64,000 nucleotides of DNA, from contig NZ_BONP01000006.1 in assembly GCF_016862775.1 (NCBI RefSeq), positions 124,001 through 188,000 of the forward strand, read 5' to 3'. Shown piece after piece: positions 3,913 to 55,446 of the stretch. Every line of letters begins with the position of its first letter. Position 1 is the stretch's first letter. Origin of the DNA: Cellulomonas phragmiteti. GTDB taxonomy: Bacteria > Actinomycetota > Actinomycetes > Actinomycetales > Cellulomonadaceae. The notes below the pieces were generated by a model. It saw only the letters and a program-made list of their open reading frames with translations. It had not been told where the DNA came from and did not search any database. A program made the translations under genes and the position numbers.

Positions 3913-5082
3913 TCAGTCCGCGAGCCGGACCACGTGCGCGTCCGCGTCGTCGGCGACGAACCGCACCGCCGGCTCCGCCGCGGCGAGCACGTCGCGCCGC
4001 TGCGCCGCCGACAGGGGCTCGAGCGGTGTCAGGGTCAGCGTCGCCGTGCCGCGGCGGCCGGCCCGGCCGGTTCCCGTGCGTGCGCGGTCGACCGCCCACG
4101 TGGCGCGCACGCGCCCGTCGACGAGGACGACGGCGGGCAGCCGGCCGTTGCGCGTCTGCAGGCGGCGGCGGTGCTCGTCGTCGATGACGCGGGTGCGCTG
4201 GGCGTGGGCCAGCCAGAGGTTGTCGAAGTCCGGCAGGAGGCGCACCGGCGCGGGCACCTCGGGGTCGGGGCGCGGCGCGTCCGGCAGGTCGAGCAGCACC
4301 CGCGGGCGGCCACCGGGGCGGACCGGCGCCGCTGGCACCTCGACGAGCCGGTCGCGGAGCCCGGCGACGACGTCGCGCAGGCCGGTCAGACCCGACCAGG
4401 CCTGCACGTCCGCCACGCTCGCCGGACCGAACGCGCCGAGGTAGCGCAGCACGAGGCGCTCGAGGGCCCGCCGCCGGTCGTCGTCGCACGGGAGAACCTC
4501 GTCCTCGCGGACCGCACCTGGGACCCAGGCGTCGAGCAGCGTCCACGCTGTGGCGGCCGGCCGTCGCCACAGACCGCGCGGGGTCACCTGGACCAGGGGC
4601 AGCAGCGCACGTGCGAACGCCGACAGGTCCTGCGGGTGCGCCGCCGGCCACTCCTGGGCGAGCAGCGCCCCGAGGTCGGTCGTCAGGCGGGGCCCCGCGC
4701 GCAGGTGCGCCGCCGCCAGGCTCGTGAGGCGGTCGACGTCCACGGCCGCCAGGGACGCCCGCCGCCGCTCGTTGGCGGCCGGCTCGCGGGCGAGGACCGG
4801 TCGGGTCAGGGCCGCGAGCACCGGGGCGTCGCGCGCCGTCACCAGGTGCACGGTCGAACGCATCACCGCGATCCGCACGACGGTGCGGTCCGTCAGCGCC
4901 GCGTCGAGGTCACCCGTCGTGAAGCCGGCGACCCGGCTCCACAGCCCCAGGAACGGCGACCACGGGTGCTGCGCCTGCAGCCCGACGAGGTGCTCGAGCA
5001 CGGTCGGCACGTCGTCGCGGGTGCGTGCGAGCAGGTGCTGGCGCGCCAGCAGGGCACGGTTGAGGGCGCGGTCGTCCAGCAC
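3913..5082 (-). CDS. Winged-helix DNA-binding protein, HTH_42/AlkX-type
   Basis: A 389-residue member of the HTH_42 superfamily (PF06224), which includes the DNA glycosylases YcaQ and AlkZ and the uncharacterised AlkX group. The N-terminal motif is LVGLQAQHPWSPF; its Q-A-Q occupies the catalytic QxQ position of AlkZ-like enzymes. A later LLPDFDNLWLAHAQR segment is the family's conserved D-loop. This supports base-excision activity on bulky alkylated DNA, but substrate is unproven and many AlkX-group proteins are untested. GTG start at 5082. A second, distinct family member lies at 17124-18407. Confidence 0.82.
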   Translation of the reverse strand: MLDDRALNRALLARQHLLARTRDDVPTVLEHLVGLQAQHPWSPFLGLWSRVAGFTTGDLDAALTDRTVVRIAVMRSTVHLVTARDAPVLAALTRPVLAREPAANERRRASLAAVDVDRLTSLAAAHLRAGPRLTTDLGALLAQEWPAAHPQDLSAFARALLPLVQVTPRGLWRRPAATAWTLLDAWVPGAVREDEVLPCDDDRRRALERLVLRYLGAFGPASVADVQAWSGLTGLRDVVAGLRDRLVEVPAAPVRPGGRPRVLLDLPDAPRPDPEVPAPVRLLPDFDNLWLAHAQRTRVIDDEHRRRLQTRNGRLPAVVLVDGRVRATWAVDRARTGTGRAGRRGTATLTLTPLEPLSAAQRRDVLAAAEPAVRFVADDADAHVVRLAD

Positions 5083-5126
5083 GTCCCGACCGTAGACCCC
5101 GGCACCGACACCACGGGCCCGCGCCC

Positions 5127-6443
5127 CTACAGGCGTCCGGCGGCCTTCAGCGCGAGGTACGTGTCGGCGAGCCGTGGCGCGAGCTCGTCGGGGGTGGCCT
5201 CGACCACCTCGACCCCCCGCTGCCGCAGCCGCATGCCGACCGCGGCCCGCTCGAGCGACGTGCGCTCCGCGGCGGCGGCGTCGAACACCTCGTCGACGGT
5301 CCGCCGCGACGCGCGCAGCTGCTCCAGCTCGGGGTCGGCGACCGACGCCAGGACGACCTGGTGGCGCCGCGTCAGCCCACCGACGACGTCGAGCAGGCCC
5401 TGCTCCACGGACGCGGGGTCCAGCGACGTCAGCAGGACCACGAGCGCCCGCCGGCTCAGGCGCGAGCGCACCTGCCCCACGAGCCCCGGCCAGTCCGTCT
5501 CCACGAGGGCGGGCTGGACGCCGGCCAGGGCCTCCGCCAGCGCCGGGAGCACGCGGGAGGAGTGGGAGTCGGCGGCGCGGGCGCGCACGCGACGGTCGTA
5601 GGCGAGCAGCTCGACGCGGTCGCCCGCGTGCGCGGCGAGCACCCCGAGGAGCAGCGCCGCCTCGACCGACGCCTCGAGCCGCGTCCCGTCGAGCACGCGC
5701 GCCGCGCTCGTGCGGGAGGTGTCGACCACGAGCATGACGTGGCGGTCCCGCTCGGGGCGCCACGTGCGCACGACGACCTCGCGCCGGCGGGCGGTCGCGC
5801 GCCAGTCGATCGACCGGACGTCGTCACCGTCGACGTACTCGCGCAGCGAGTCGAACTCGGTGCCGGCGCCCCGCACCTGGACCGCGGCGCGTCCGTCGAG
5901 CTCACGCAGGCGCGCGAGGCGCGACGGCAGGTGCCGGCGGGAGGCGAACTCGGGCAGGACCCGCAGCCGCCCCGGCACGTCGAGCGACGCCTGCCGCCCG
6001 GCGACCCCCAGCGGGCCGAGCGTGCGGACCGTCACGCGGTCCGCCACGGCGTCACCCCGCCGGGTCGGCACCAGCCGCGTGGTGACGCGCCGCAGCTCGC
6101 CGGGGGGCACGTCGACCCGGTGGCGCGGCGTGCGGACGCCCGCGGGGTCGTCCCCGCCCGGCAGCGTCGACGGCGGCCACGCGTCGCGGACCACCGCGCG
6201 CGCCGTGCGGCGTCCCGCGTTGCGCAGCGTGAGCACGGCGTCGACCGTGCCGGACAGGCGCACCGAGGTCGGCAGGCGCCGTGCGACGGCCAGCTCGCGC
6301 GGCGAGGCCGCCAGTGCGACGTCGACGCCGCACAGGACCACCACGACGAGCGCCCACACCAGCACGGTCAGGGGAGCGGGCAGCAGGGCCACCGGCACGA
6401 GGCCGGCGAGCGCGACCAGCACCGCGCGGGACGTCAGCGCCAC
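5127..6443 (-). CDS. DUF58 domain-containing protein
   Basis: A 438-residue protein. Two adjacent N-terminal membrane helices (about 4-45) precede a beta-rich region and then the DUF58 core with the signature REYVDGDDVRSIDWRATAR (about 235-253) and a von Willebrand A-like fold containing VMLVVDTSRTSA, a MIDAS-like D-x-S. DUF58 proteins partner with MoxR AAA ATPases in assembly or metal-insertion functions. The start is 4 bp downstream of the moxR stop, so it is the next gene of that operon. GTG at 6443 is preferred over upstream in-frame codons because those overlap moxR. Confidence 0.88.
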   Translation of the reverse strand: MALTSRAVLVALAGLVPVALLPAPLTVLVWALVVVVLCGVDVALAASPRELAVARRLPTSVRLSGTVDAVLTLRNAGRRTARAVVRDAWPPSTLPGGDDPAGVRTPRHRVDVPPGELRRVTTRLVPTRRGDAVADRVTVRTLGPLGVAGRQASLDVPGRLRVLPEFASRRHLPSRLARLRELDGRAAVQVRGAGTEFDSLREYVDGDDVRSIDWRATARRREVVVRTWRPERDRHVMLVVDTSRTSAARVLDGTRLEASVEAALLLGVLAAHAGDRVELLAYDRRVRARAADSHSSRVLPALAEALAGVQPALVETDWPGLVGQVRSRLSRRALVVLLTSLDPASVEQGLLDVVGGLTRRHQVVLASVADPELEQLRASRRTVDEVFDAAAAERTSLERAAVGMRLRQRGVEVVEATPDELAPRLADTYLALKAAGRL

Positions 6444-6447
6444 GGGC

Positions 6448-7547
<1,100 letters not shown>

Positions 7548-7551
<4 letters not shown>

Positions 7552-8735
7552 GGTCGGTGTACCTCGCTCTCCAGGTGGTGCAGGTCGTCGGCGAGCCGCA
7601 GCAGGCCCGCGTCGTCAATGGGGGGCGGCCCGTAGAGCAGCGACTCGACGTCGACCGCCCGTCGCCCGGTCGCCCGGGCCAGCGCGTCGACGAGCGACGG
7701 CGCGTCGGCGGACCGCGGCAGGCCCAGCCGGTGCGCGACCCGTGCGGCCGTGCCGGCGCGCAGCGCGGCCGCGGCGTGCCCGTGGGCGCGTGCCCGCCGG
7801 TACAGGCGCCCGCGCCCGCGGGTCGCCTCCGCGGAGCGCACGACCACCGGCAGGGGCTCGGCGACGACCGGTCCGAGCCGGCGGCCGCGCCACACGACGG
7901 TGACCAGCAGCACCAGCACCAGCCAGGCTGCGACCGGGCGCACCCACGGCACGAGGTCCGGCAGCGACGTGCCGGACCCGGGCTCGCCGACGACGCCCAT
8001 GTCGTCGAGGCTCGGCACGTACCACACGAGGTGGTCGTGCCGGCCGAGCGCCCGCAGCGCGAGCGCCGCGTGGCCGTCCTCGTCGACCGCGTCGTTCGTC
8101 AGCGGGTGCAGGTCGGACAGCGCGGTGATCCGCCGGCCGTCCCGCTCCAGCACCAGGTACGCCCCGCCCCCGCCGCCGGCGGGGAAGCACGTGGTGGCGG
8201 CGCCGCTGAGGTCCTCGTACCCGCCGGCCGCGGTGAGGGTGCCGGCCGCGACGGCGTCGGGGTCGTCGCAGGACGCCTCGCGCCGCGTGCGCGGCACGGC
8301 CTCACCGCTCGTCGCGACGTCCGGCGCGAGGCGGGACAGGGCCCATCCCGCGTCGACCAGCACGAGGTCGTCGTCGAGCGCGGCGAGCGCGTCGACCTGC
8401 TCCTCGACGAGCCACTGGTCGCCGACGACGAGCACGGTGCCGTCGCCCCGGGCGGCCGCGAGCGCGGCGGCCGTCGTCGTCACGTGGTCGACGGTGACGC
8501 CCTGGCGCTCCAGGACGCGTGCGACGGCGCGGGCGCCCGAGGCCCCGGGGTTGTCCGGGGCCCCCGGCGTGCTGCTGACCGGCGGCGCGGGCAGCGTCAG
8601 GACCAGACCGCCCACCAGCACGACACCCAGCACGACGAGCCACGGACGGCCACGCCGCCACCGGTCGGCCGCCCGGGAGCGCCCGGTCGACCCGTCACCG
8701 AGGACCTCGCCGACGGTTGCGGTCGTGGCGCTCAC
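7548..8735 (-). CDS. DUF4350 domain-containing membrane protein
   Basis: A 395-residue protein with a membrane anchor at about 32-50 (WLVVLGVVLVGGLVLTLP), an extracytoplasmic DUF4350 domain with the family's 'NPGASGARAVARVLERQGV' opening (part: GASGARAVARVLERQG) and a second helix near 275-292. The cytoplasmic tail is arginine-rich. Its fold resembles glutamine-amidotransferase-like/GldG-type domains. The protein is a standard member of the actinobacterial MoxR cluster; no activity is assigned. It overlaps DUF4129 upstream and moxR downstream by 4 bp each, so expression is tightly coupled. Confidence 0.87.
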
Positions 8736-9355
8736 GCGGGGACCGCCGTGGGGCGCGCGGCGCGCACGGCCTCGTCGAGGGCACGCAGGGCCGCGTCGTC
8801 CTCGGAGGTGGCCGACCGCTCGCCGTAGACGACGTCGTCGAACAGGTCGCCCCCGCGTGCCAGCTGGTCGGCGTGCGCGGGCAGGGCGGCGCCGGCGACC
8901 CGGGCCGCCTCGTGCGCGGTGCGACCCGGTCGCTCGTCGAGCAGCCCACGGTCCTCCAGGTCGCGGACCACGGCCCGGTACCGCTCGGCGACGGCCAGGG
9001 ACCACGTGCCGGCGCGTGCCGCCGCGTCGGCGGCGTCGCGCAGCTGGGCGGCGGTGCGGCGGTCGTCCGCGTGCAGCACCCCGGAGCGTCGCCGGCGCGC
9101 GGTGGCGCGGACGGGCCCGGCCACGCGCAGCGCGACGACGACGACCAGCACGACCACGGCGACCACCACCAGCAGCGCGGCGCCGTGGGACATGCCGATC
9201 CCCGGCATGGTCTCGAGCTGCTCGACCACCCACGCCAGCGCACGCTGCAGCAGGGACTCCTGGCGGTGGTAGACGGGGTCGAGCAGCTCCTCCTGCAGCC
9301 ACCGGCGCGCCTGCGCGGGGTCGGGCTCCAGGGGCACCCGGGCGAGGCCGATCAC
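8732..9355 (-). CDS. DUF4129 domain-containing protein
   Basis: A 207-residue protein with one membrane helix (about 60-80, LLVVVAVVVLVVVVALRVA) and a C-terminal DUF4129 domain carrying WSLAVAERYRAVVRDLEDRGLL and the PGRTAHEAARVAG motif that is diagnostic of the family. The short N-terminal segment reads DPAQARRWLQEELLDPVYH, typical for the actinobacterial version, which lacks the transglutaminase domain found elsewhere. It is the first tightly coupled gene of the DUF4129-DUF4350-MoxR-DUF58 set. GTG start; 30 bp from the preceding gene. Confidence 0.87.
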   Translation of the reverse strand: MIGLARVPLEPDPAQARRWLQEELLDPVYHRQESLLQRALAWVVEQLETMPGIGMSHGAALLVVVAVVVLVVVVALRVAGPVRATARRRRSGVLHADDRRTAAQLRDAADAAARAGTWSLAVAERYRAVVRDLEDRGLLDERPGRTAHEAARVAGAALPAHADQLARGGDLFDDVVYGERSATSEDDAALRALDEAVRAARPTAVPA

Positions 9356-9385
9356 GTCACCACCGCCCGGCGCCCTGCGGGCAGG

Positions 9386-10591
9386 TCATGCGCCACCGGT
9401 CGCCGCGCGGGCGAGCTCGAGGTCGAGCCCCTCGCGACGGATGCGGACGTCGACGTACAGCAGCGCGACGACCGCGGCGAGGAACGTCGTGGACAGCGTG
9501 AGGCCGACGACCTGACCCAGGGCCGACACCAGGATCGTCAGGCTCTCCGAGCCCGAGGTCGCGGTGACGAGCCCGGCCACGACGGCGGCCGGCACGAGGA
9601 AGAGGTACATGAGCACGGAGACCAGCAGGTTCGACAGCAGGTAGATGCCGAGCAGGCGCCAGAAGCTCCCGCGCGTCAGCCGCCACGCACGCGCCACCGT
9701 GGGCCAGAAGCGCTTGCCCTCGAGCATGAGCGCCGGCGGCACGAGCAGCGTGCGGGCGGTCACCCACACGACGGCGGCCAGCAGCCCCAGACCGCCCAGG
9801 AGGGCGACGCCGAACGCCTCCCAGTCGGCACCCGCGGCGGCGAGCCCGACGACCGCGCCGATCCACAGGGCGAAGGCCAGCACGGACGCGAGCAGCTGCA
9901 GCAGGCCGAACCCCACGAGCAGCCAGACGCGGCGGGTGCGCCACACCTCGCGCAGCGCGACCTTCTCACCGATCACGGACCGGCTCACGGAGACGATGAG
10001 CAGACCGGTCAGCACCGACGTGACGGGGACGAGCAGCGGGATCGTCAGCACCTGCCCGCCGCTCGTCGAGAGCATCTCGGAGATCATGGCCGAGTCGGCG
10101 GCCGTCATGGCGCCGTCGAGCGTGGCGTCGCCCAGGGCGGCGCCGATCAGGCTCGTCACGTACAGCTGGACCAGGGTCTGCAGCGCGACGGCCACGGTCA
10201 CCACGACGGCCGAGAGGCCGAACATCACCGCGGGGTTCGCCCGCACGGCGCGGACGGCGCCGTCGAGGATCTCGCCGAGCCCCAGCGGGCGCAGCGGGAT
10301 GATGCCGGGCTGCACGGCCGGCAGGTGCCACGCGGGGGGACCCGCGGCCGGTGCCGGCGCGCCCCAGCCCGGCGGCGGCGCCGGCTGGCCCCAGCCCTCC
10401 GGCAGCGGCGCGGCGGGCGGCGGGCCGCCCCAGGCCGGTGGCGCGGGAGGGGCACCCCATCCGGCGCCGGGCGGCGCCGGCGCGGGCGGGTGGGGCGCGG
10501 CGGGCGGGCCGGTGCGCGACGGGTCCGCGGCGGGGCCGGCGGGGCTCGTCCACGGCGCGGGCCCCGGGCCGTCGTCCTGCGGGGAGGTCAT
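9386..10591 (-). CDS. Polytopic membrane protein with Pro/Gly-rich N-terminal tail
   Basis: A 401-residue protein. The first 95 residues are proline, glycine, alanine and tryptophan rich (repeated PPAWGG/PPGWGA-like units) and are probably disordered. From about 100 the sequence PLGLGEILDGAVRAVRANP begins a domain with around six membrane helices, resembling the glycerophosphoryl diester phosphodiesterase membrane-domain family seen at this place in Micrococcales. There is no phosphodiesterase catalytic domain, so no enzyme activity is claimed. It is probably the first gene of the MoxR operon (30-bp gap) and is divergent from mtrA. ATG start. Confidence 0.8.
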   Translation of the reverse strand: MTSPQDDGPGPAPWTSPAGPAADPSRTGPPAAPHPPAPAPPGAGWGAPPAPPAWGGPPPAAPLPEGWGQPAPPPGWGAPAPAAGPPAWHLPAVQPGIIPLRPLGLGEILDGAVRAVRANPAVMFGLSAVVVTVAVALQTLVQLYVTSLIGAALGDATLDGAMTAADSAMISEMLSTSGGQVLTIPLLVPVTSVLTGLLIVSVSRSVIGEKVALREVWRTRRVWLLVGFGLLQLLASVLAFALWIGAVVGLAAAGADWEAFGVALLGGLGLLAAVVWVTARTLLVPPALMLEGKRFWPTVARAWRLTRGSFWRLLGIYLLSNLLVSVLMYLFLVPAAVVAGLVTATSGSESLTILVSALGQVVGLTLSTTFLAAVVALLYVDVRIRREGLDLELARAATGGA

Positions 10592-11475: not shown

Positions 11476-13236
11476 GTGCCCCGGCTGACGTCCTGGGGGC
11501 GGCTGGGCAGGGCCCGGGCACGACGTCGCGTCCGCGGCATGGTCCGGCGGTGGCGGTCGTCGCTGCAGCTGCGCGTGCTGGCGTCCACGCTGACGATCGG
11601 GCTCGTGGCGCTCGTCGCCATCGGGGGGTACGTCGGGGAGCGCACCCGGGCGGGGCTGTTCGACCAGCGGCTGCAGCAGATCCTCAGCGAGACGTGGCGG
11701 GGCACCGAGCAGACGCAGGAGTCGCTCTCGGCGTCGGCGGCGAACACCTACAGCGAGGTGGCGCTCCTGCTGGAGGACGTGACGACCGCCCAGCGCAACG
11801 GCGGCTCGGGCGAGCGGGACGTCTTCCTGCTGCGGGCGCCCGGGCAGACGGGCATCGCACTGGGGGCGACGGCGACCAACGAGGCGCTCGTCACGCTCGT
11901 GAGCCGCGAGCTCAAGCGGGCCGTCGTCGACGGGGGCCAGCACTGGCAGTCCGTCGCGATCCCGACCGCCGACGGGCGGGTCGAGCCCGGCATCGTCGTG
12001 GGGCAGGACGTCGACGTGCCCATGGCGGGCACCTACCAGATGTTCTTCCTGTACAGCCTGCAGGCCGAGCAGGCCCGGCTGGACTTCCTGCTGCGCACCC
12101 TGACCTTCGCGGCCGTCGCGGTGGTGGCTCTGCTCGGGGCGATGACCTGGCTGGTGACCCGCCGCACGGTCCACCCCGTCCGGCGGGCGGCGCACGTCGC
12201 CGAGCGGCTCGCCGACGGTCACCTCTCGGAGCGGATGACCGTGCGCGGCCAGGACGAGATGGCGACGCTGGCCCGCACGTTCAACGAGATGGCGGAGAGC
12301 CTGCAGGACCAGATCCGCCGCATGGAGGAGCTCTCGACGCTGCAGCGCCGGTTCGTCTCGGACGTGTCCCACGAGCTGCGCACGCCGTTGACGACGATCC
12401 GCATGGCGGGTGAGGTCATCCACGGCGCGCGCGAGGACTTCGACCCCGCCATCAAAAGGTCGGCGGAGCTGCTGGCCACGCAGCTCGACCGGTTCGAGGA
12501 CCTGCTGGCGGACCTGCTGGAGATCAGCCGGTTCGACGCCGGGGCGGCCGTGCTCGACGCCGAGGGCCGCGACCTGCGGGACATCGTGGTGCAGGCCGTC
12601 GACAACGCGACGCCGCTCGCGGAGCGCCGGGGGTCGTGGCTGCAGGTCGAGCTGCCGGACGTGCGAGCGGACGCGGACGTGGACCCGCGGCGCGTCGAGC
12701 GCGTCCTGCGCAACCTCCTGGTCAACGCGGTCGAGCACGCCGACGGCTCGGCGGTCGAGGTGCGGGTGGGCGTCGACGCGACCGCCGTGGCCGTGACGGT
12801 CCGTGACCACGGTGTGGGCATGACGGCGGACGAGGCGCTGCACGTCTTCGACCGGTTCTGGCGGGCGGACCCGGCGCGGGCCCGGACCACGGGCGGGACG
12901 GGGCTGGGGCTGGCCATCTCGCTCGAGGACGCCCACCTGCACGGCGGCTGGCTGGAGGCGTGGGGCCGTCCCGGACGGGGAGCGTGCTTCCGCCTCACGC
13001 TGCCACGGCGGGCCGGCATCCGGCTGGACGGGTCGCCCCTGCCGCTCGTGCCCGTGCAGGACGTCACGCCCGCAGCCGACGAGCCGCGCCGCAGCACGGA
13101 CCCGGCGGCGCTGCCCGACCTGCCGCCCATGACGGGGGAGATCGCGATCGTGAGCAACCCGACCGACCCGGTGCGCACCGACGTGCGGCTCGACGACCCC
13201 GCCCCGGCGGGTGCCGACGCCCGGCGGCGGGTGTGA
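11476..13236 (+). CDS. mtrB: MtrB, sensor histidine kinase
   Basis: A 586-residue kinase. Membrane helix 1 lies at about 33-55, an extracytoplasmic sensor of roughly 155 residues follows, helix 2 is at about 208-230, then HAMP. The HisKA box FVSDVSHELRTPLTTIRMA contains phospho-acceptor H299, and the ATPase domain has RNLLVNAVEHA (N box), DHGVGM (G1) and GTGLGLAI (G2). The last 75 residues are a variable tail. It phosphorylates MtrA. GTG at 11476 is 34 bp after mtrA; a shorter ATG start (MVRRWRSS) is possible. The stop overlaps lpqB by 4 bp. Confidence 0.96.
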   Translation: MPRLTSWGRLGRARARRRVRGMVRRWRSSLQLRVLASTLTIGLVALVAIGGYVGERTRAGLFDQRLQQILSETWRGTEQTQESLSASAANTYSEVALLLEDVTTAQRNGGSGERDVFLLRAPGQTGIALGATATNEALVTLVSRELKRAVVDGGQHWQSVAIPTADGRVEPGIVVGQDVDVPMAGTYQMFFLYSLQAEQARLDFLLRTLTFAAVAVVALLGAMTWLVTRRTVHPVRRAAHVAERLADGHLSERMTVRGQDEMATLARTFNEMAESLQDQIRRMEELSTLQRRFVSDVSHELRTPLTTIRMAGEVIHGAREDFDPAIKRSAELLATQLDRFEDLLADLLEISRFDAGAAVLDAEGRDLRDIVVQAVDNATPLAERRGSWLQVELPDVRADADVDPRRVERVLRNLLVNAVEHADGSAVEVRVGVDATAVAVTVRDHGVGMTADEALHVFDRFWRADPARARTTGGTGLGLAISLEDAHLHGGWLEAWGRPGRGACFRLTLPRRAGIRLDGSPLPLVPVQDVTPAADEPRRSTDPAALPDLPPMTGEIAIVSNPTDPVRTDVRLDDPAPAGADARRRV

Positions 13237-45192: not shown

Positions 45193-46374
45193 TCAGAGCA
45201 CCGCGACGGTGACCACCGCGATGTCGTCGCGCGCGTCACCGGACTGGTAGCGCAGCACGTCCGCGAGGATGGCGTCCGTGACGTCCGCGGCCGGGCCGCG
45301 GTGCTCGGCGACCACCGCGGCGAGGCGGTCGTTGCCGTAGAGCTCCCCGCGACGGTGCCGACCCTCGGTGACGCCGTCGGTGAACAGCACGAGCGTGTCA
45401 CCCGGTGCCAGCGTCACCTCGGTGTCGGAGAAGACGGGCTGCGGGAACACGCCGAGCAGGGGACCGTGGCGACCCACGGGGGCCGGGTGGCCCGCCGACG
45501 GCCGCAGCAGCGGCAGGGGGTGCCCGGCGCACGCGACGCTCGCCCGCCACGTGCCGTCGGTCCGCCGCAGCCGCGCGAGCACCGCCGTGCAGAAGCGGTC
45601 GGTCGCGGCGCCACGCAGCACCTGGTCGAGCGTGTGCAGGACCTGCCGCGGAGCGTCGTGGTCGACGGCCGCGGCCCGCACGGTGTGGCGCGCGAGCGCG
45701 GTGACGACGGCCGCCTCGACGCCCTTGCCCTGGACGTCGCCCAGGACGACGACCCAGTCGTCGGTCGCGACCTGGAAGACGTCGTAGAAGTCGCCGCCCA
45801 CGTGCCGTCCGTCTCCCGCGGGCCGGTACGCGGCGGCGACGTCGAGGCCCGGGACCTGCGGCGGCGTCGGCGGGATGAGGGTCTGCTGCAGGGTCTGCGC
45901 GAGCTCGACGGCACGCGCCTCGGACGCCTCCGCGCGGCGGGTGGCGGCGAGCATCTCCTGCTCGTAGCGCCGGCGCTCGGTCGCGTCGAAGACGGCCGTG
46001 CGGATGAGGCGCGGGGTGCCGTCGGCGTCGCGCTCGAGCACCGAGTTGACGAGCACGGGCAGCCGGCGACCGTCGGCGCAGACGACCTCGAGGGCGATCT
46101 CCCGCGCGGTGCCCTGCAGGCGCAGCGCCGGTGCGTAGTGGGTCTCGTGGTAAATCCGGCCGCCGACGGGCAGCAGGTCCACGAAGCGCCGGCGCCCGAC
46201 GAGGTCCTCGCGGCGGTGGCCGGTCCAGGCGAGGAACGTGGCGTTGACGCGGACGAGCACGCCGTCCGGCGTCGTCGACAGGTACCCGCACGGCACACGG
46301 TCGTCCAGCATCTCCGTGTCCTGCTCCTCGGGGGACCCGTCGACCCCGGGACCTCGGGGCGCAGGCCCCGTCAC
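45193..46374 (-). CDS. RsbP-like PAS-PP2C (SpoIIE-type) phosphatase
   Basis: A 393-residue protein: PAS domain (about 25-135, FLAWTGHRREDLVGRRRFVDLLP), a coiled-coil linker (about 138-165, RRRYEQEMLAATRRAEASEA) and a PP2C/SpoIIE domain (about 190-392). Metal-binding residues are in GGDFYDVF, VLGDVQGKGVEAA, VLFTDGVTEGR and the final RDDIAVVTVAV. This is the architecture of Bacillus RsbP, which dephosphorylates an anti-anti-sigma factor under energy stress. The start overlaps the RsbQ-like gene by 4 bp, mirroring rsbQ-rsbP. No sigma-B/RsbV/RsbW genes are nearby. Confidence 0.88.
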   Translation of the reverse strand: MTGPAPRGPGVDGSPEEQDTEMLDDRVPCGYLSTTPDGVLVRVNATFLAWTGHRREDLVGRRRFVDLLPVGGRIYHETHYAPALRLQGTAREIALEVVCADGRRLPVLVNSVLERDADGTPRLIRTAVFDATERRRYEQEMLAATRRAEASEARAVELAQTLQQTLIPPTPPQVPGLDVAAAYRPAGDGRHVGGDFYDVFQVATDDWVVVLGDVQGKGVEAAVVTALARHTVRAAAVDHDAPRQVLHTLDQVLRGAATDRFCTAVLARLRRTDGTWRASVACAGHPLPLLRPSAGHPAPVGRHGPLLGVFPQPVFSDTEVTLAPGDTLVLFTDGVTEGRHRRGELYGNDRLAAVVAEHRGPAADVTDAILADVLRYQSGDARDDIAVVTVAVL

Positions 46375-47177
46375 GGGTGCCCGGCGCGCACGAACCCGGC
46401 GATCGCCGCCGTGGTCGCCTCGGGTGCGCTGAGGTTCGGGCAGTGACCGGTCGCGTCGAGCAGCACCATGCGCGCGCCCGGGATCGCGTCGCGCACGTAC
46501 TGCCCGACGGCGACCGGTGCGATGACGTCGTCGGTGCACTGCAGCACGAGCGTCGGGACGGGGACACGGGCGAGGTCCGCGCGGTTGTCCGACAGGAAGG
46601 TCACGCGGGCGAACCGCCGCGCGATGTCCGGGTCGGTCCGGCAGAAGCTCGCGGTGAGCTCGGCACCGAGCTCGGGGCGGTCCACGTTGCCCATGATCAC
46701 GGGCGCCATCGCGCTCGACCACCCCAGGTAGTTGCTGTCGAGCGACTCGAGGAGCTCGGCCACGTCGGCCCGCGTGAAGCCGCCCGTGTACCCGTCGTCG
46801 TCGAGGTAGCGCGGGGACGGGCCGACGAGCACGAGCTTGTCGAACCGGTCGGGCTCGGCGGCCACGGCGAGCACCCCGATCATGGCCGAGACCGAGTGCC
46901 CCACCAGCACGACGTCGCGCAGATCGAGCTTCCGGACGATCTCCAGGACGTCCTGCGCGTACCCGTCCAGCGTCCCGTACCGCACGGGGTCGTACGCGGC
47001 GAGGTCGGAACCCCCGGCGCCGACGTGGTCGAAGGTGACCACCGTGAACGCGTCCTCGAACCGTGGCGCGACGTGCCGCCACATGTGCTGGTCACAGCCG
47101 AAGCCGTGCGCGAAGACGATCGGCTGCGCGCCGGGCACGCCGGAGACGCGGATGTCGTGCCGGTCGACCACAGTCAC
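46371..47177 (-). CDS. RsbQ-like alpha/beta hydrolase
   Basis: A 268-residue hydrolase with end-to-end similarity to Bacillus RsbQ: HGFGCDQHMWRHVAP, FDHVGAGGSDLAAYD, YGTLDGYAQDVLEI, GPSPRYL and FCRTDPDIARRFA. The triad is complete: S95 (GHSVSAM), D217 (CTDDVIAP) and H245 (GHCPN). RsbQ is a hydrolase required for RsbP activation and is in the same superfamily branch as plant D14/KAI2 receptors. The ligand is unknown. GTG start, preceding the phosphatase gene in the same transcript. Confidence 0.92.
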   Translation of the reverse strand: MTVVDRHDIRVSGVPGAQPIVFAHGFGCDQHMWRHVAPRFEDAFTVVTFDHVGAGGSDLAAYDPVRYGTLDGYAQDVLEIVRKLDLRDVVLVGHSVSAMIGVLAVAAEPDRFDKLVLVGPSPRYLDDDGYTGGFTRADVAELLESLDSNYLGWSSAMAPVIMGNVDRPELGAELTASFCRTDPDIARRFARVTFLSDNRADLARVPVPTLVLQCTDDVIAPVAVGQYVRDAIPGARMVLLDATGHCPNLSAPEATTAAIAGFVRAGHP

Positions 47178-47234: not shown

Positions 47235-48470
47235 TCACGGTCGCCGCGGGCCGGCCTCGTACGTGTGCCCCGCCGCCCGCAGCCGCTCGACGAGGACGTC
47301 CCCGATCCCCGTCGCCGGCGTCAGCGAGCCGGCCCGGTCGGGCAGCCGGTCGCCGTCGAGCGCCAGCGCCAGGGCGGCCTGTCCCAGCATGACCGCGGTC
47401 GCGGCGTACCCGGGGTCGCCGGTGCCGGCGGCCAGCGCCCGGTACTGCCGACCGGTGGTCGTGACCGCGTGGACGTCCATCCGGAACCAGCCGGTGCGGC
47501 GCGTGTCCTCGTCCGGGCCGGAGCCCGGGGCCGGCAGCAGGCGGTCGAGCAGCCGGCCCGCGCCGGGGACGGCGAGCGCCGCCAGACCCAGCGGCAGGCC
47601 GGCCGTCAGCGCCGTCGCCGCGGCGGCTCCGCGGACGCCGCGTCCCGTCGCCGCGACCTCCTCGTACGCCAGGCCGTGCCCGTACGCCCAGCCCTGCAGC
47701 GCGTTGGAGCGCCGGACCACGCGGCTGTTGAACGAGCCCATGGGCGAGGTCGCGACCCACCGGCCGTCGACGGTGCGCCCGGGCAGCGGCGCGTCCGGCG
47801 GCTGCGGCGTGGCGGGCTCCTCGCCGCGGTCCGGGCTCAGGGAGAACGGGTCGGCGAGCAGCCGCCGGACGGAGGCGTCCTGCGCGGCCAGCCGCGCGAT
47901 CCCGCGCACGGACGCGATCGTGCCGCCGCTCACGCCGCCCCGGGCGCTCGCGACCAGGCGGACCCTCCCCAGCGTCCCGGAGCCGTCGGCCGTCACCTGC
48001 CGGTGCAGCAGGAGGACCGCCAGGTCCGACGGCACGGCGTCGTACCCGCACGCGTGGACCAGGCGTGCCCCCGTCGCCCGCGCGACCTCGTCGTGCGCGT
48101 CCGCGGCGCGCCGGACGAACGGCACCTCGCCCGTCAGGTCGGCGTAGTGCGTCCCCGCGCGGGAGCACGCCTCGACGACCGGCAGGCCGTGCCGCAGGTA
48201 GGGCCCGACGGTGCTGACGACGACACGCGCCGACGCGGCCAGGGCGCGCAGGGACGGGTCGTCGTCCGTGTCCGCCACGACGAGCGGCCAGTCGTGCGCG
48301 CGGTCGGGGAGCGCGGCACGCACCCGCGCCAGCCGCTCGCGCGACCGACCCGCCAGGGCGACGCGGGTGCCCGCGGGCGCGTGGTGCGCGAGGTGCTCGG
48401 CGACGAGCGCACCGACGAACCCGGTCGCGCCGAGGACGGCGACGTCATGGTCCCGTGCGGTGTCGGCCAT
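47235..48470 (-). CDS. Saccharopine dehydrogenase-like / trans-acting enoyl reductase family protein
   Basis: A 411-residue Rossmann-fold protein. The NAD(P) loop is VAVLGATGFVGALVAEHL, and VVSTVGPYLRHGLPVVEAC and HYADLTGEVPF are the family's conserved blocks, seen in mycobacterial trans-acting enoyl reductase (Rv2449c/Rv2953-type) proteins. A lipid substrate is plausible but unproven. ATG at 48470, 4 bp after the preceding GNAT gene, so the two are cotranscribed; RsbQ follows after 57 bp. Confidence 0.85.
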   Translation of the reverse strand: MADTARDHDVAVLGATGFVGALVAEHLAHHAPAGTRVALAGRSRERLARVRAALPDRAHDWPLVVADTDDDPSLRALAASARVVVSTVGPYLRHGLPVVEACSRAGTHYADLTGEVPFVRRAADAHDEVARATGARLVHACGYDAVPSDLAVLLLHRQVTADGSGTLGRVRLVASARGGVSGGTIASVRGIARLAAQDASVRRLLADPFSLSPDRGEEPATPQPPDAPLPGRTVDGRWVATSPMGSFNSRVVRRSNALQGWAYGHGLAYEEVAATGRGVRGAAAATALTAGLPLGLAALAVPGAGRLLDRLLPAPGSGPDEDTRRTGWFRMDVHAVTTTGRQYRALAAGTGDPGYAATAVMLGQAALALALDGDRLPDRAGSLTPATGIGDVLVERLRAAGHTYEAGPRRP

Positions 48471-48474
48471 CCGG

Positions 48475-49116
48475 TCAGGCTGTCGTCCCGTCGCGGGCAG
48501 CGCAACCGGGTCGGCGGGTCGTGGTCCCGTGCAGGACGGCCAGACGCGGCCCGTCGTCGCCGAGCCGGTGCGTGCCCGTCGTCGTGAACCCGTGCCGCTG
48601 GTAGAACGGCACGTTGCGCGGGTCGGTGGTCGCGAGCCACGGGGTGCCCGCGTCGTCCCCGTGGGCGCTCAGGCCGTGGCGCAGCAGCCGACCGCCGAAC
48701 CCTCGCCCCTGGTGGGAGGGGTGCACGGCGAGGTAGTTGAGGTACGGGCCCGGACGTGCGGGGGCGAGCGCCGCGGCCCCGCCGAGCGCGCCGAGGACGT
48801 GCGCGGCGTGCGTCCGGCCCACCAGGGCCGCCAGCACCCCTGCGGATGAGGGCAGGGTCGACGGCGTCGCGCCCGGGGCGCCGGGCAGCCGCCACGCCGC
48901 CACCGCGACGACCTGCCCGTCCACCGTGAGCACGTCCACGCGGCCGGCCTCGAGGTAGCGCTCGAGCGACGGCCCGAGCCAGGCCGCGCAGGCGTCGGCG
49001 CGCGTGGCCGCGTCCGGCAGCGCCCAGCGCACGAGGGGGTTCTCGAGGTAGGCCAGGGCGCATGCCGTGCGGACGACGGGCAGGTCCGCGGCAGCCGCCG
49101 GCCGGATCGTCGTCAT
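48475..49116 (-). CDS. GNAT family N-acetyltransferase
   Basis: A 213-residue acetyltransferase. TIRPAAAADLPVVRTACALAY starts the fold; LNYLAVHPSHQGRGFGGRLLRHGL carries the acetyl-CoA loop QGRGFG; LATTDPRNVPFYQRHGF is the C-terminal block. Substrate unknown. ATG at 49116, divergent from coaD with a 61-bp gap. Probably the first gene of the minus-strand block. Confidence 0.87.
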   Translation of the reverse strand: MTTIRPAAAADLPVVRTACALAYLENPLVRWALPDAATRADACAAWLGPSLERYLEAGRVDVLTVDGQVVAVAAWRLPGAPGATPSTLPSSAGVLAALVGRTHAAHVLGALGGAAALAPARPGPYLNYLAVHPSHQGRGFGGRLLRHGLSAHGDDAGTPWLATTDPRNVPFYQRHGFTTTGTHRLGDDGPRLAVLHGTTTRRPGCAARDGTTA

Positions 49117-52954: not shown

Positions 52955-53647
52955 GTGTCTGCCACGAGCCAGTCGACGCCGCCGCCGCCCACGGGCGGCC
53001 GGCCAGGGCCCATCTCCGTCATGATCGTCGACGACCACGAGGTCGTCCGTCGCGGCATCGCCGAGGTCGTCGAGCGCACCGACGGCATGACCGTCGTCGC
53101 GGAGGCGGGGTCCGTCGCCGACGGCGTCCGGCGCGCGACCCTGGTGCGGCCCCAGGTGCTGCTGGTCGACCTGCAGCTGCCCGACGGCACGGGCATCGAC
53201 CTCATGAAGGCGGTGCGCGAGACGCTCCCGGCGGCACGCGCGATCGTCCTCACCTCGTTCGACGACGACGACGCCCTGGCGGCCGCGCTCGACGCGGGCG
53301 CGTCGGCCTACCTGCTCAAGAGCGTGCGCGGTGCCGAGATCACCGACGTCATCCGGGCCGTCGCCGCGGGTCGCACGCTCCTCGACGACCGCACCGTGGC
53401 CCGCCGCCGTGCCGGTCACGAGGACCCGACCGAGTCGCTGACCCCCAGCGAGCTGCGGGTGCTCGACCTCATCGGCGAGGGCCTGTCGAACCGGGAGATC
53501 GCGGAGCGGCTGGGTGTCGCGGAGAAGACCGTGAAGAACCACATCACGTCGTTGCTCGCGAAGATGGGGCTGCAGCGCCGCACGCAGGTCGCCGCGTGGG
53601 TCGCCTCGCGCAAGAACTCCGGCTGGCGGGCCGAGCCGGGGCACTGA
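52955..53647 (+). CDS. NarL/FixJ (DevR/DosR-like) response regulator
   Basis: A 230-residue regulator. Receiver domain: acidic pair in VDDHEVV (about 25-31), phospho-acceptor D72 in LLVDLQLPDG, K in AYLLKSVRG. The C-terminal LuxR-type HTH reads LTPSELRVLDLIGEGLSN then REIAERLGVAEKTVKNHITS LLAKMGLQRRTQVA, in which AEKTVKN and LLAKMGLQRRTQ closely resemble mycobacterial DevR. It faces the DevS-like kinase gene, with 26 bp between stops. GTG start at 52955, followed by a 20-residue Pro-rich leader. Confidence 0.9.
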   Translation: MSATSQSTPPPPTGGRPGPISVMIVDDHEVVRRGIAEVVERTDGMTVVAEAGSVADGVRRATLVRPQVLLVDLQLPDGTGIDLMKAVRETLPAARAIVLTSFDDDDALAAALDAGASAYLLKSVRGAEITDVIRAVAAGRTLLDDRTVARRRAGHEDPTESLTPSELRVLDLIGEGLSNREIAERLGVAEKTVKNHITSLLAKMGLQRRTQVAAWVASRKNSGWRAEPGH

Positions 53648-53673: not shown

Positions 53674-55446
53674 TCAGCCGAGCGGTGCCTGCCACGTCAG
53701 CAGGGTCCCTTTGCCGGTGGGGGAGGCGCCGAGGCTGAACGTGCCGCCGTGCTGCCGCGCGCGCGAGGCGAGGTTGCCCGTCCCGGAGCTGCGCTCCCGC
53801 TCGGCCGGCAGGCCCACGCCGTCGTCCTCCACGTCGACCTCGACCGATCCGGTGGGTCCGGACCCCCGCACGACGACACGCACGCTCACCGAGGACGCGT
53901 GCGCGTGGCGGGCGGCGTTCGCGAGGCCCTCACGGACCACGGCGACCACGTCGTCCGTCAGCTCCTGCTCGAGGCGCTCGTCGATCCGGTCCTCGCCCTC
54001 GCCGTCGCCCGGGGTCAGCCCGTCGCCGTCGAGCGAGAGCACCAGCGACGGGGCGAAGCCGAGCCCGGTACGCGCGAGCGACGTCTCCCGGCGCAGGCGC
54101 TCCACCAGCCCGGTGGCCGCGTCCGGGTCGCGCAGCGCGTAGACGATCTGCCGGATCTGACGCACCGAGCTGTCGACGTTGTCGAGGGCGTCCTCCACGA
54201 TGCTCATGAGCTCCTGGGGGTCGACGCCCCGGGCGGCGCGACGACGCACCGTCTCGAGCTGCATGCCGGTGGCGAAGAGCTGCTGGATCGCCAGGTCGTG
54301 CAGGTCCCGTGCGATGCGCTCGCGCTCGTCGAGGAGCGCCGCCACGTCCTGGGCGTGCCGCGCCTCGGCCAGCACGTACGCCAGGGCGGCCTGCGCCGCG
54401 AACGACTCGGCGGTGGCGAGGTCGCTCTCGTCGAACGGCGTGCCACCGATGCGCCGCAGCAGCACGAGGACCCCGACGCCGCGCCCCGAGGAGTGCAGGG
54501 GCGCGAACATCGCCGGCCCGAACGCGCGCATCTCGTCGAGCTTGACGGTCCGGGACGCCGACAGCGACGGCGTCAGCAGGCCCCGGCCCTCCTCGAGCAC
54601 CGTCCAGGCGCGCCCGCCGCGCGGCATCACCAGGCCCGTGAGCGCGTCCGCGCGGTAGCCGTCGGCGAGCTCGATGTACAGCTCGCCGCCCATGCCCGGC
54701 AGCGCCAGGGCCGCGGAGTCGGCCCCGGCGACCTCGCGCGCGGTGCGCGCGACGTGCTCGAGCGCGGACTCCTCGTCCACGCCCTCGAGCAGCATCGTCG
54801 TGATGTCCTGCCCGGCACGCAGCCAGTGCTCGCGACGCTCGGCCTCCGCGTACAGCTGCGCGTTGGCGACCGCCACGCCGGCGGCGGCCGCCAGTGCGAC
54901 GACCATCTGCTCGTCACGTGCCGTGAAGGGCTCGCCGCCGTCCTTCTCGGACAGGTACAGCTGGCCGTAGACGTGCTCGCCGACCTTGACGGAGGCACCG
55001 AGGAACGAGCCCATCGCGGGGTGGTGCGCGGGCCACCCCGCGAACGCCGGGTGCTGGGTGAGGTCGTCGAGCCGCAGGGCCCCGTCGATCGGGATCTGCC
55101 CCAGCACGCCCTGGGCGTGCGGGGGGTGGCGCATCGCGCGGGCCACGGCGGTGGGGACGCCGGTGTACACGAACGTGGTGGAGGCACCGGCGTCGTCCAG
55201 GACGTTGATGGCCCCGTAGCGGGCGCACGTCAGCTCCGCGCTGACCTGCACGAACCGGTCCAGCACGGCCGGCAGCTCGAGGTGCCCGGCGACGGCCAGC
55301 ATCGCCCCGAGCAGGTCGGTCAGCGCGTCCCCGGTGAGGGCCGCGGGGTCCGGGGGGGCGTCGCGCAGCACCCCGCGCTCGAACGGCGCGCCGGCCGTCG
55401 GGAGCCGCGGGGCGACCTCGCGCATCTCGCCACGGTGCTCGCTCAC
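53674..55446 (-). CDS. DevS/DosS-like GAF sensor histidine kinase
   Basis: A 590-residue soluble kinase. GAF-A (about 60-200) is closest to DosS/DevS: ARYGAINVLDD, then HPAFAGWPAHHPAMGSFLG, in which H142 aligns with the heme-ligand histidine of DosS. GAF-B spans about 225-365. The HisKA_3 box RIARDLHDLAIQQLFATGMQ has H383, and the ATPase domain has LANAARHAHAS and DDGVGLP. Gas or redox sensing by heme is inferred. The start overlaps the cydC stop by 4 bp, so it belongs to the cyd operon. Confidence 0.9.
   Translation of the reverse strand: MSEHRGEMREVAPRLPTAGAPFERGVLRDAPPDPAALTGDALTDLLGAMLAVAGHLELPAVLDRFVQVSAELTCARYGAINVLDDAGASTTFVYTGVPTAVARAMRHPPHAQGVLGQIPIDGALRLDDLTQHPAFAGWPAHHPAMGSFLGASVKVGEHVYGQLYLSEKDGGEPFTARDEQMVVALAAAAGVAVANAQLYAEAERREHWLRAGQDITTMLLEGVDEESALEHVARTAREVAGADSAALALPGMGGELYIELADGYRADALTGLVMPRGGRAWTVLEEGRGLLTPSLSASRTVKLDEMRAFGPAMFAPLHSSGRGVGVLVLLRRIGGTPFDESDLATAESFAAQAALAYVLAEARHAQDVAALLDERERIARDLHDLAIQQLFATGMQLETVRRRAARGVDPQELMSIVEDALDNVDSSVRQIRQIVYALRDPDAATGLVERLRRETSLARTGLGFAPSLVLSLDGDGLTPGDGEGEDRIDERLEQELTDDVVAVVREGLANAARHAHASSVSVRVVVRGSGPTGSVEVDVEDDGVGLPAERERSSGTGNLASRARQHGGTFSLGASPTGKGTLLTWQAPLG

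Follow-up and report, generated by a model that had tools for sequence, protein, structure and literature searches.

What does the RsbQ-RsbP pair, which in Bacillus subtilis activates sigma-B by way of RsbV and RsbW, do in an actinobacterium whose genome seems to be without any SigB/F/G sigma factor? The question is raised by a 64,000-nucleotide stretch of the Cellulomonas phragmiteti genome (contig NZ_BONP01000006.1, positions 124,001 to 188,000; hereafter the window), in which the gene for an RsbQ-type alpha/beta hydrolase is directly followed by that for a phosphatase of RsbP type (Table 1). A first-pass annotation had read the two as an RsbQ-RsbP energy-stress module; the class of the pair was borne out by sequence, class residues, predicted hydrolase fold and gene order, and the energy-stress label is one carried over from Bacillus. 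In the available text of Nadezhdin et al., energy sensing by the module is described as an assumption without experimental support, and as of 2011 the RsbQ signal was unknown and the module's regulatory target known only in B. subtilis (PMC3183031). Judged by its sequence, the window pair is a further member of the RsbQ/PAS bipartite sensor module described there, and the unusual part is its output: we think it probable that an intact RsbQ-RsbP switch here feeds a partner-switching network with an endpoint other than SigB.

A PDB-wide phmmer search with the 268-residue hydrolase ranked RsbQ of B. subtilis (1wom) first with an E-value of 2.4e-85, followed by Olei00960 (7.7e-69), the plant receptors KAI2 and D14 (1.4e-57 and weaker) and, from 1.2e-16, other hydrolases; Pfam recognized general hydrolase families only. 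The alignment to RsbQ runs end to end (48.9% identity over 264 columns) and the complete Ser-Asp-His triad is present, as had been noted before. An AlphaFold2 model (predicted local distance difference test score, pLDDT, of 95.0; 36-row alignment) likewise retrieved 1wom first in a fold search, with a template modelling (TM) score of 0.95 at 1.2 Å. The hydrolase has G119 in common with RsbQ and DAD2, where KAI2 has a serine, and Y124 in common with KAI2. A quick maximum-likelihood tree built from 79 rows separated the 73 RsbQ-module and plant rows from six generic hydrolases with a support of 96 by the Shimodaira-Hasegawa-like approximate likelihood-ratio test (SH-aLRT); the tool warned that the generic rows sit on very long branches, and the tree therefore strengthens the case made by the score gap only moderately. 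The window hydrolase falls in a group of eight rows, all from its own family (99 SH-aLRT), and the five plant receptors form a branch of their own (99 SH-aLRT). The earlier placement of the hydrolase in the branch of D14 and KAI2 thus holds in that RsbQ and these receptors group together away from generic hydrolases, and the tree, which sets the five plant rows apart, rules out a position among them. Sequence, tree and predicted fold agree that the hydrolase is of RsbQ type. With the plant receptors it shares the fold (TM 0.91–0.95), the triad and the tyrosine of KAI2, and it differs from them in branch and by an identity of only 31–38%; we know of no PAS partner of D14 or KAI2. By analogy with these receptors, sensing of a small ligand by the hydrolase is possible.

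In the 393-residue partner, Pfam found PAS_9 at residues 28–133 and SpoIIE at 205–391 (1.1e-47), and a predicted model (pLDDT 86.8; predicted TM score 0.64; 17 rows) showed the PAS domain, a single 36-residue helix and the PP2C domain in succession, where PAS, coiled coil and PP2C had been claimed. The gene directly downstream of the hydrolase thus begins with an RsbP-type PAS as its N-terminal domain. As far as the available text goes, Nadezhdin et al. give nine characteristic RsbP-PAS residues, C10, L13, L48, Q53 (basic), F55 (aromatic), C56, Y59 (H/Y), E72 and P86 (PMC3183031). All nine positions fit in the window partner (C29, L32, L68, R73, Y75, H76, H79, E92 and P106), using B. inaquosorum RsbP as the reference and the consensus classes given in the text of that paper rather than its figure. 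These include the counterparts (L68, Y75, H79 and E92) of L48, F55, Y59 and E72, at each of which, according to the same text, alanine abolished signalling in B. subtilis (PMC3183031). Between PAS and output, 36 of 45 module proteins are reported to have a coiled coil 21 or more residues long, and the RsbP-PAS class is said there to be without the DIT motif at the PAS end (PMC3183031). In the window partner the helix occupies the position that the coiled coil has in RsbP, alignment to Bacillus RsbP opens a gap of 38 residues in the linker region, and the PAS end reads FDATERR, with DAT and not DIT; D-A/V-T is found in 16/16 window-type partners. The PP2C aspartates D195, D213, D333 and D384 are invariant across the 17 rows of alignment A3.

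The two genes, both on the minus strand, are joined by a 4-bp GTGA overlap. The overlap and the Bacillus-like gene order had been put forward together; both are real, yet the overlap is no feature of the one Bacillus pair that was read closely, that of B. inaquosorum, in which rsbQ and rsbP lie 33 bp apart. Among actinobacterial pairs a 4-bp overlap is possible in 51/88 when the start codon nearest to the overlap is picked. In comparison with B. subtilis, for which RsbP was examined through B. inaquosorum and other Bacillaceae, the pair is alike in protein classes, gene order, triad, PAS class residues, PAS-helix-PP2C order and PP2C aspartates; it is unlike in the linker gap, the spacing of the genes and the DAT ending, and in lying in a genome without a detected SigB/F/G factor and hence without a sigma-B output.

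The hydrolase was found in 24 of the 396 genomes of a phylum sample (window's genome counted) at a threshold of at least 40% identity, the weaker listed matches being 27–34% identical, and in 77/221 genomes of the family at 1e-40 or better, spread over 12 of its 25 genera and present in 29/81 genomes of the genus. We fetched 92 loci besides the window's own, comprising 66 of the 79 family places (13 were left out) and all 26 phylum places at 40% identity or above. An RsbP-type PAS lay directly downstream of the hydrolase in 88/92. The output was PP2C in 79/92, with 36 like the window pair in having no recognized middle domain, 40 with a GAF-like stretch and 3 with GAF domains; it was GGDEF or GGDEF-EAL in four, a histidine kinase in two and unresolved in three (partner frames were unresolved at L223 and at the contig-end loci L204 and L224), and no PAS was found in four. 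Hydrolase and PAS-PP2C stand side by side in 16 of the 18 window-type places.

In the window's genome, rated 100% complete, no SigB/F/G factor was found by TIGR02980 (cut-off 234 bits) with all 33 candidates scored, the best matches being RpoD (133 bits) and FliA/WhiG (118 bits), then matches of 35 bits and less. Across the family 0/221 genomes exceeded the cut-off, where up to 12 of the 8–46 first-look candidates were scored per listed genome; three genomes, all of one genus and none hydrolase-bearing, reached 213–221 bits (E-value 1e-50), and none of the 77 hydrolase-bearing genomes reached that E-value. The window's genome, and the family as far as it was searched, thus seem to be without SigB/F/G, and the link to sigma-B is not supported.

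Elsewhere in the phylum sample the picture is different. Among the other hydrolase-bearing genomes, 20/23 hold a SigB/F/G factor at E-values of 1e-50 or less, versus 212/372 hydrolase-free genomes (Fisher p 0.004, uncorrected for kinship); those without one at this threshold are G051, G108 and G264 (64% complete). A STAS gene directly follows rsbP in seven loci, one of Streptomyces anulatus (L083) and six of another genus in the window's class, g9 (L246, L247, L248, L250, L251 and L253). L247 (positions 4236–9666, genome G193 of the same class as the window's) holds in a row the genes for a SigB/F/G factor (292 bits), rsbQ, rsbP, a STAS protein and an RsbW-like ATPase, and on the opposite strand another STAS gene; its STAS protein scored 53.1 bits by TIGR00377, just under the 53.45 cut-off, and exceeded the Pfam STAS cut-off. 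L248 also has a sigma gene upstream of rsbQ, 63% identical to that of L247, and in L252 a SigB-like gene (37%) is divergent from rsbQ; no sigma gene was seen beside the pair in the other probed loci, except for a weak match in L113. The row in L247 and the STAS genes after rsbP tie the phosphatase to partner switching by gene order elsewhere in Actinomycetota, and in L247 that order also links RsbQ-RsbP with control of SigB type. These clusters share the pair with the window, at 60–65% hydrolase identity, and differ in carrying a STAS gene and, in L247 and L248, a SigB/F/G gene, neither of which lies near the window pair.

Within the 64-kb window, no match above 38 bits (E-value 1e-6 or less) was obtained with five probes (three STAS, one RsbW-like, one SigB) and a PF01740 search found no STAS domain, which agrees with the earlier remark that RsbV, RsbW and a sigma factor are missing nearby. 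Two weak HATPase_c_2 matches, at 53746–53979 (minus strand) and 12691–12924 (plus strand), lie in frames of about 600 residues that are probably histidine kinases; a response-regulator-like open reading frame, recognized by eye, ends at 53647. Possible STAS targets do exist in the rest of the genome, where five stand-alone STAS proteins carry the serine of the DS[ST]G motif. A further two STAS domains sit in transporter-like proteins, which we take to be SulP transporters. RsbW-like ATPases (HATPase_c_2) are encoded on contigs C16, C23 and C25, and on C10 in a fusion to PP2C; by sequence these would be putative kinases for the STAS proteins. Speaking for a partner-switching output, an anti-anti-sigma match (TIGR00377, E-value 1e-10 or less, partly under the cut-off) occurs in 77/77 hydrolase-bearing family genomes versus 130/144 others (Fisher p 0.0027, uncorrected for kinship and genome size). 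The STAS protein of contig C12 (106314–106682) is the nearest of the five to the STAS protein of the S. anulatus operon (34.6% identity, 1.5e-15) and is commoner with the hydrolase in the genus (26/29 versus 30/52 genomes; Fisher p 0.0027, uncorrected for kinship), observations that weakly support it as the best candidate target of the phosphatase. Such co-occurrence, uncorrected as it is and with the protein absent from other hydrolase-bearing genera, was rejected as proof, and the C12 protein stays a candidate only.

On C12 itself (L257, 7103–10609) the STAS gene lies between a divergent gene for a SigE-type extracytoplasmic function (ECF) sigma factor (137.4 bits, just under the 141.55 cut-off) and a gene judged by eye to encode a membrane pyrophosphatase. 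On C10 (L256, about 6918–9960) the PP2C-RsbW-like fusion has two stand-alone STAS genes nearby on the other strand, a second locus grouping partner-switching parts, and C23 (L258) encodes a SpoIIE (PP2C) protein whose N-terminal half is presumably bacteriophytochrome-like.

We propose that the pair would act as a bicistronic RsbQ-RsbP signalling switch. In the available text of one source, the STAS protein RsbV is the substrate that Bacillus RsbP dephosphorylates, and RsbT activates RsbU through a coiled-coil linker, the same being predicted for RsbP with RsbQ (PMC12143880); a PP2C switch is described in another, likewise as far as its available text goes (PMC5468089). By homology with these systems, contact of RsbQ with the PAS domain would be relayed by the linker helix (131–166), which would turn on the PP2C domain. 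The phosphatase might then act on a stand-alone STAS protein of anti-anti-sigma type encoded elsewhere, dephosphorylating its conserved serine, the C12 protein being the best candidate, and the dephosphorylated STAS protein would bind an RsbW-like kinase. Because no SigB/F/G factor was found in the window's genome, the last step would involve another partner of RsbW-like proteins and not sigma-B. The choice of STAS target and the final output are what we infer from the present analysis alone; contact, linker and phosphatase switch are modelled on the Bacillus work.

Against this reading stand several observations, to which the scoring of up to 12 candidates per listed family genome belongs. 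In the window, the pair has no linked target gene, and the RsbW-like proteins match PF13581 at 31–53 bits only (cut-off 27.4). The co-occurrence tests are uncorrected for kinship and genome size. Within the genus, 3/29 genomes with the hydrolase have no C12 STAS protein (E-value 1e-20 or less), and several further hydrolase-bearing genera are without it as well, so that it cannot be a universal target. The class residues are not all strict in the phylum: in the 69 aligned actinobacterial partners (23/175 rows were unalignable) the C10 position has Cys in 31 cases and Val in 26, and the E72 position has Glu in 56. Finally, 2/18 window-type places hold remnants only (L222, at the rsmD-coaD site, and L227), so the pair is dispensable.

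The last point bears on whether the pair does anything at all in these bacteria. A horizontally moving module that is idle, or being lost, and has no current circuit in the family would account for those remnants, for the patchy distribution in family and genus, and for the insertion-like position of the pair between rsmD and coaD, two genes that are adjacent in 13 of 20 hydrolase-negative genomes of the genus (the first 20 listed) and separated by the GNAT gene alone in 7, as far as probed. The 16 intact window-type relatives that were fetched carry the pair at the rsmD-coaD place in four cases and elsewhere in 12, which together with the two remnants means that the pair comes and goes. We nevertheless hold an idle module to be improbable, as both proteins are intact with catalytic and class residues kept, hydrolase and phosphatase have stayed adjacent in nearly all window-type places, and the hydrolase recurs in almost half the genera of the family. 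Still harder to credit, indeed the least credible of all, is a metabolic esterase beside an unrelated phosphatase. In its favour, many proteins share this fold, and weak matches came from 32 NCBIfam models, hydrolase models for the most part; of the 25 shown none reaches its cut-off, and the phmmer score gap and the split from the generic hydrolases in the tree, with these cut-offs, rule out a generic esterase, while the constancy of the RsbQ-PAS adjacency over the fetched loci argues against a chance neighbour.

If the switch is accepted, its output must be chosen. The canonical energy-stress pathway, with RsbV and RsbW relaying the signal of the pair to a sigma-B-type factor, is favoured by gene order and protein classes that match Bacillus, by the SigB/F/G factors in most other hydrolase-bearing sample genomes and by the sigma genes upstream of rsbQ in L247 and L248; it is nonetheless very improbable here, given RpoD and FliA/WhiG scores far under the cut-off in a genome rated 100% complete and a family in which the few near matches fall outside the hydrolase bearers. 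In its literal form a sigma-B output is refuted, unless the assembly misses a sigma-B-like factor. A switch ending in another sigma factor, with the RsbW-like kinase holding FliA/WhiG or an ECF factor until it is set free by the STAS protein that RsbP has dephosphorylated, fares better and is still rather doubtful. FliA/WhiG is present in the window's genome, and the ECF gene divergent from the C12 STAS gene has a counterpart, likewise divergent and within 330 bp, in 11/20 relatives (picked from 92 genomes with a C12-type STAS). This version rests on gene neighbourhood, however, and a pyrophosphatase gene lies within 2.6 kb of the same STAS gene in 16/20, with or without rsbQ, so that the neighbourhood may mean nothing for RsbP; since these neighbours are kept regardless of rsbQ, no conclusion on the target was drawn from them. 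Our preferred reading is a switch feeding a partner-switching network that ends in another partner of the RsbW-like proteins than SigB. We are evenly divided on the more general idea that RsbQ-RsbP has been rewired throughout this family, which seems to lack SigB/F/G: the same hydrolase-PAS sensor would drive partner switching that acts on a sigma factor of ECF or FliA type, or on something that is no sigma factor.

The module at large shows how varied its outputs are. In the available text of the 2011 survey, 45 RsbQ/PAS pairs are listed, with phosphatase outputs in two Streptomyces among them, and kinase outputs go with Gram-negative hosts (PMC3183031). The window pair agrees with that description in having the hydrolase gene directly before a gene with an N-terminal RsbP-PAS, as well as in its phosphatase output; it differs in coming from an actinobacterial family with no SigB/F/G factor over the cut-off, and related loci of the phylum add GAF-like domains between PAS and PP2C and a histidine-kinase output (L241 and L242). 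A further 83 loci, consisting of three plasmid loci and, out of at least 580 confirmed matches, the 80 most similar to RsbQ of B. subtilis, and hence no census, had a histidine kinase in 32, GGDEF in 22, PP2C in 17, PAS only in 7 and no PAS found in 5. This mix agrees with the 2011 paper; the Gram-negative rule for kinases is no longer strictly held, as L241 and L242 come from draft genomes of the window's phylum and L106 from Paenibacillus.

Several single loci deserve mention. The GAF-like stretch of the 40 loci (e.g., L180, 6794–8383) lay below Pfam cut-offs in the four tested. L243 (6001–8552, genome G284 of the same phylum) encodes a hydrolase of 40% identity, placed with plant D14/KAI2 in the tree (98 SH-aLRT, on a long branch); its gene overlaps by 4 bp that of a PAS-GGDEF protein, whose PAS was not recognized as RsbP-type. 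L083 (163–8093), on a linear plasmid of S. anulatus, holds two rsbQ-rsbP pairs within 8 kb, the first with the STAS gene, and hydrolase matches at E-values of 1e-30 or less occur in 74 PLSDB records. In the window, the rsmD-coaD interval holds the pair, a saccharopine-dehydrogenase-like gene that was not seen there in the 20 hydrolase-negative relatives, and the GNAT gene, which is probably outside the module.

Table 1. Features of the RsbQ-RsbP locus and its upstream neighbours, in window coordinates (domain coordinates are derived from residue numbers)
Feature	Position	Strand	Remarks
RsbQ-type alpha/beta hydrolase, 268 aa, GTG start	46371..47177	-	triad S95/D217/H245
RsbP-type PAS-helix-PP2C (SpoIIE) phosphatase, 393 aa, GTG start	45193..46374	-	4-bp overlap of its start with the end of the hydrolase gene
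RsbP-PAS domain, about residues 27-130	45985..46296	-	nine class residues plus P82
Linker helix, residues 131-166, in place of the RsbP coiled coil	45877..45984	-	from the predicted model
PP2C/SpoIIE domain, Pfam residues 205-391	45202..45762	-	D213, D333, D384 (D195 just before)
Saccharopine-dehydrogenase-like protein, upstream of the pair	47235..48470	-	adjoins the pair in 4 relatives
GNAT acetyltransferase	48475..49116	-	between rsmD and coaD also in 7/20 relatives without the hydrolase

RsbQ is a bacterial cousin of the plant hormone receptors, and the actinobacteria offer two natural experiments on its module. One is provided by loci such as L247, where gene order ties the pair to partner switching; the other is the family of C. 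phragmiteti, where the sensor has been kept without a SigB/F/G factor, so that there the partner-switching output could be looked at apart from sigma-B.

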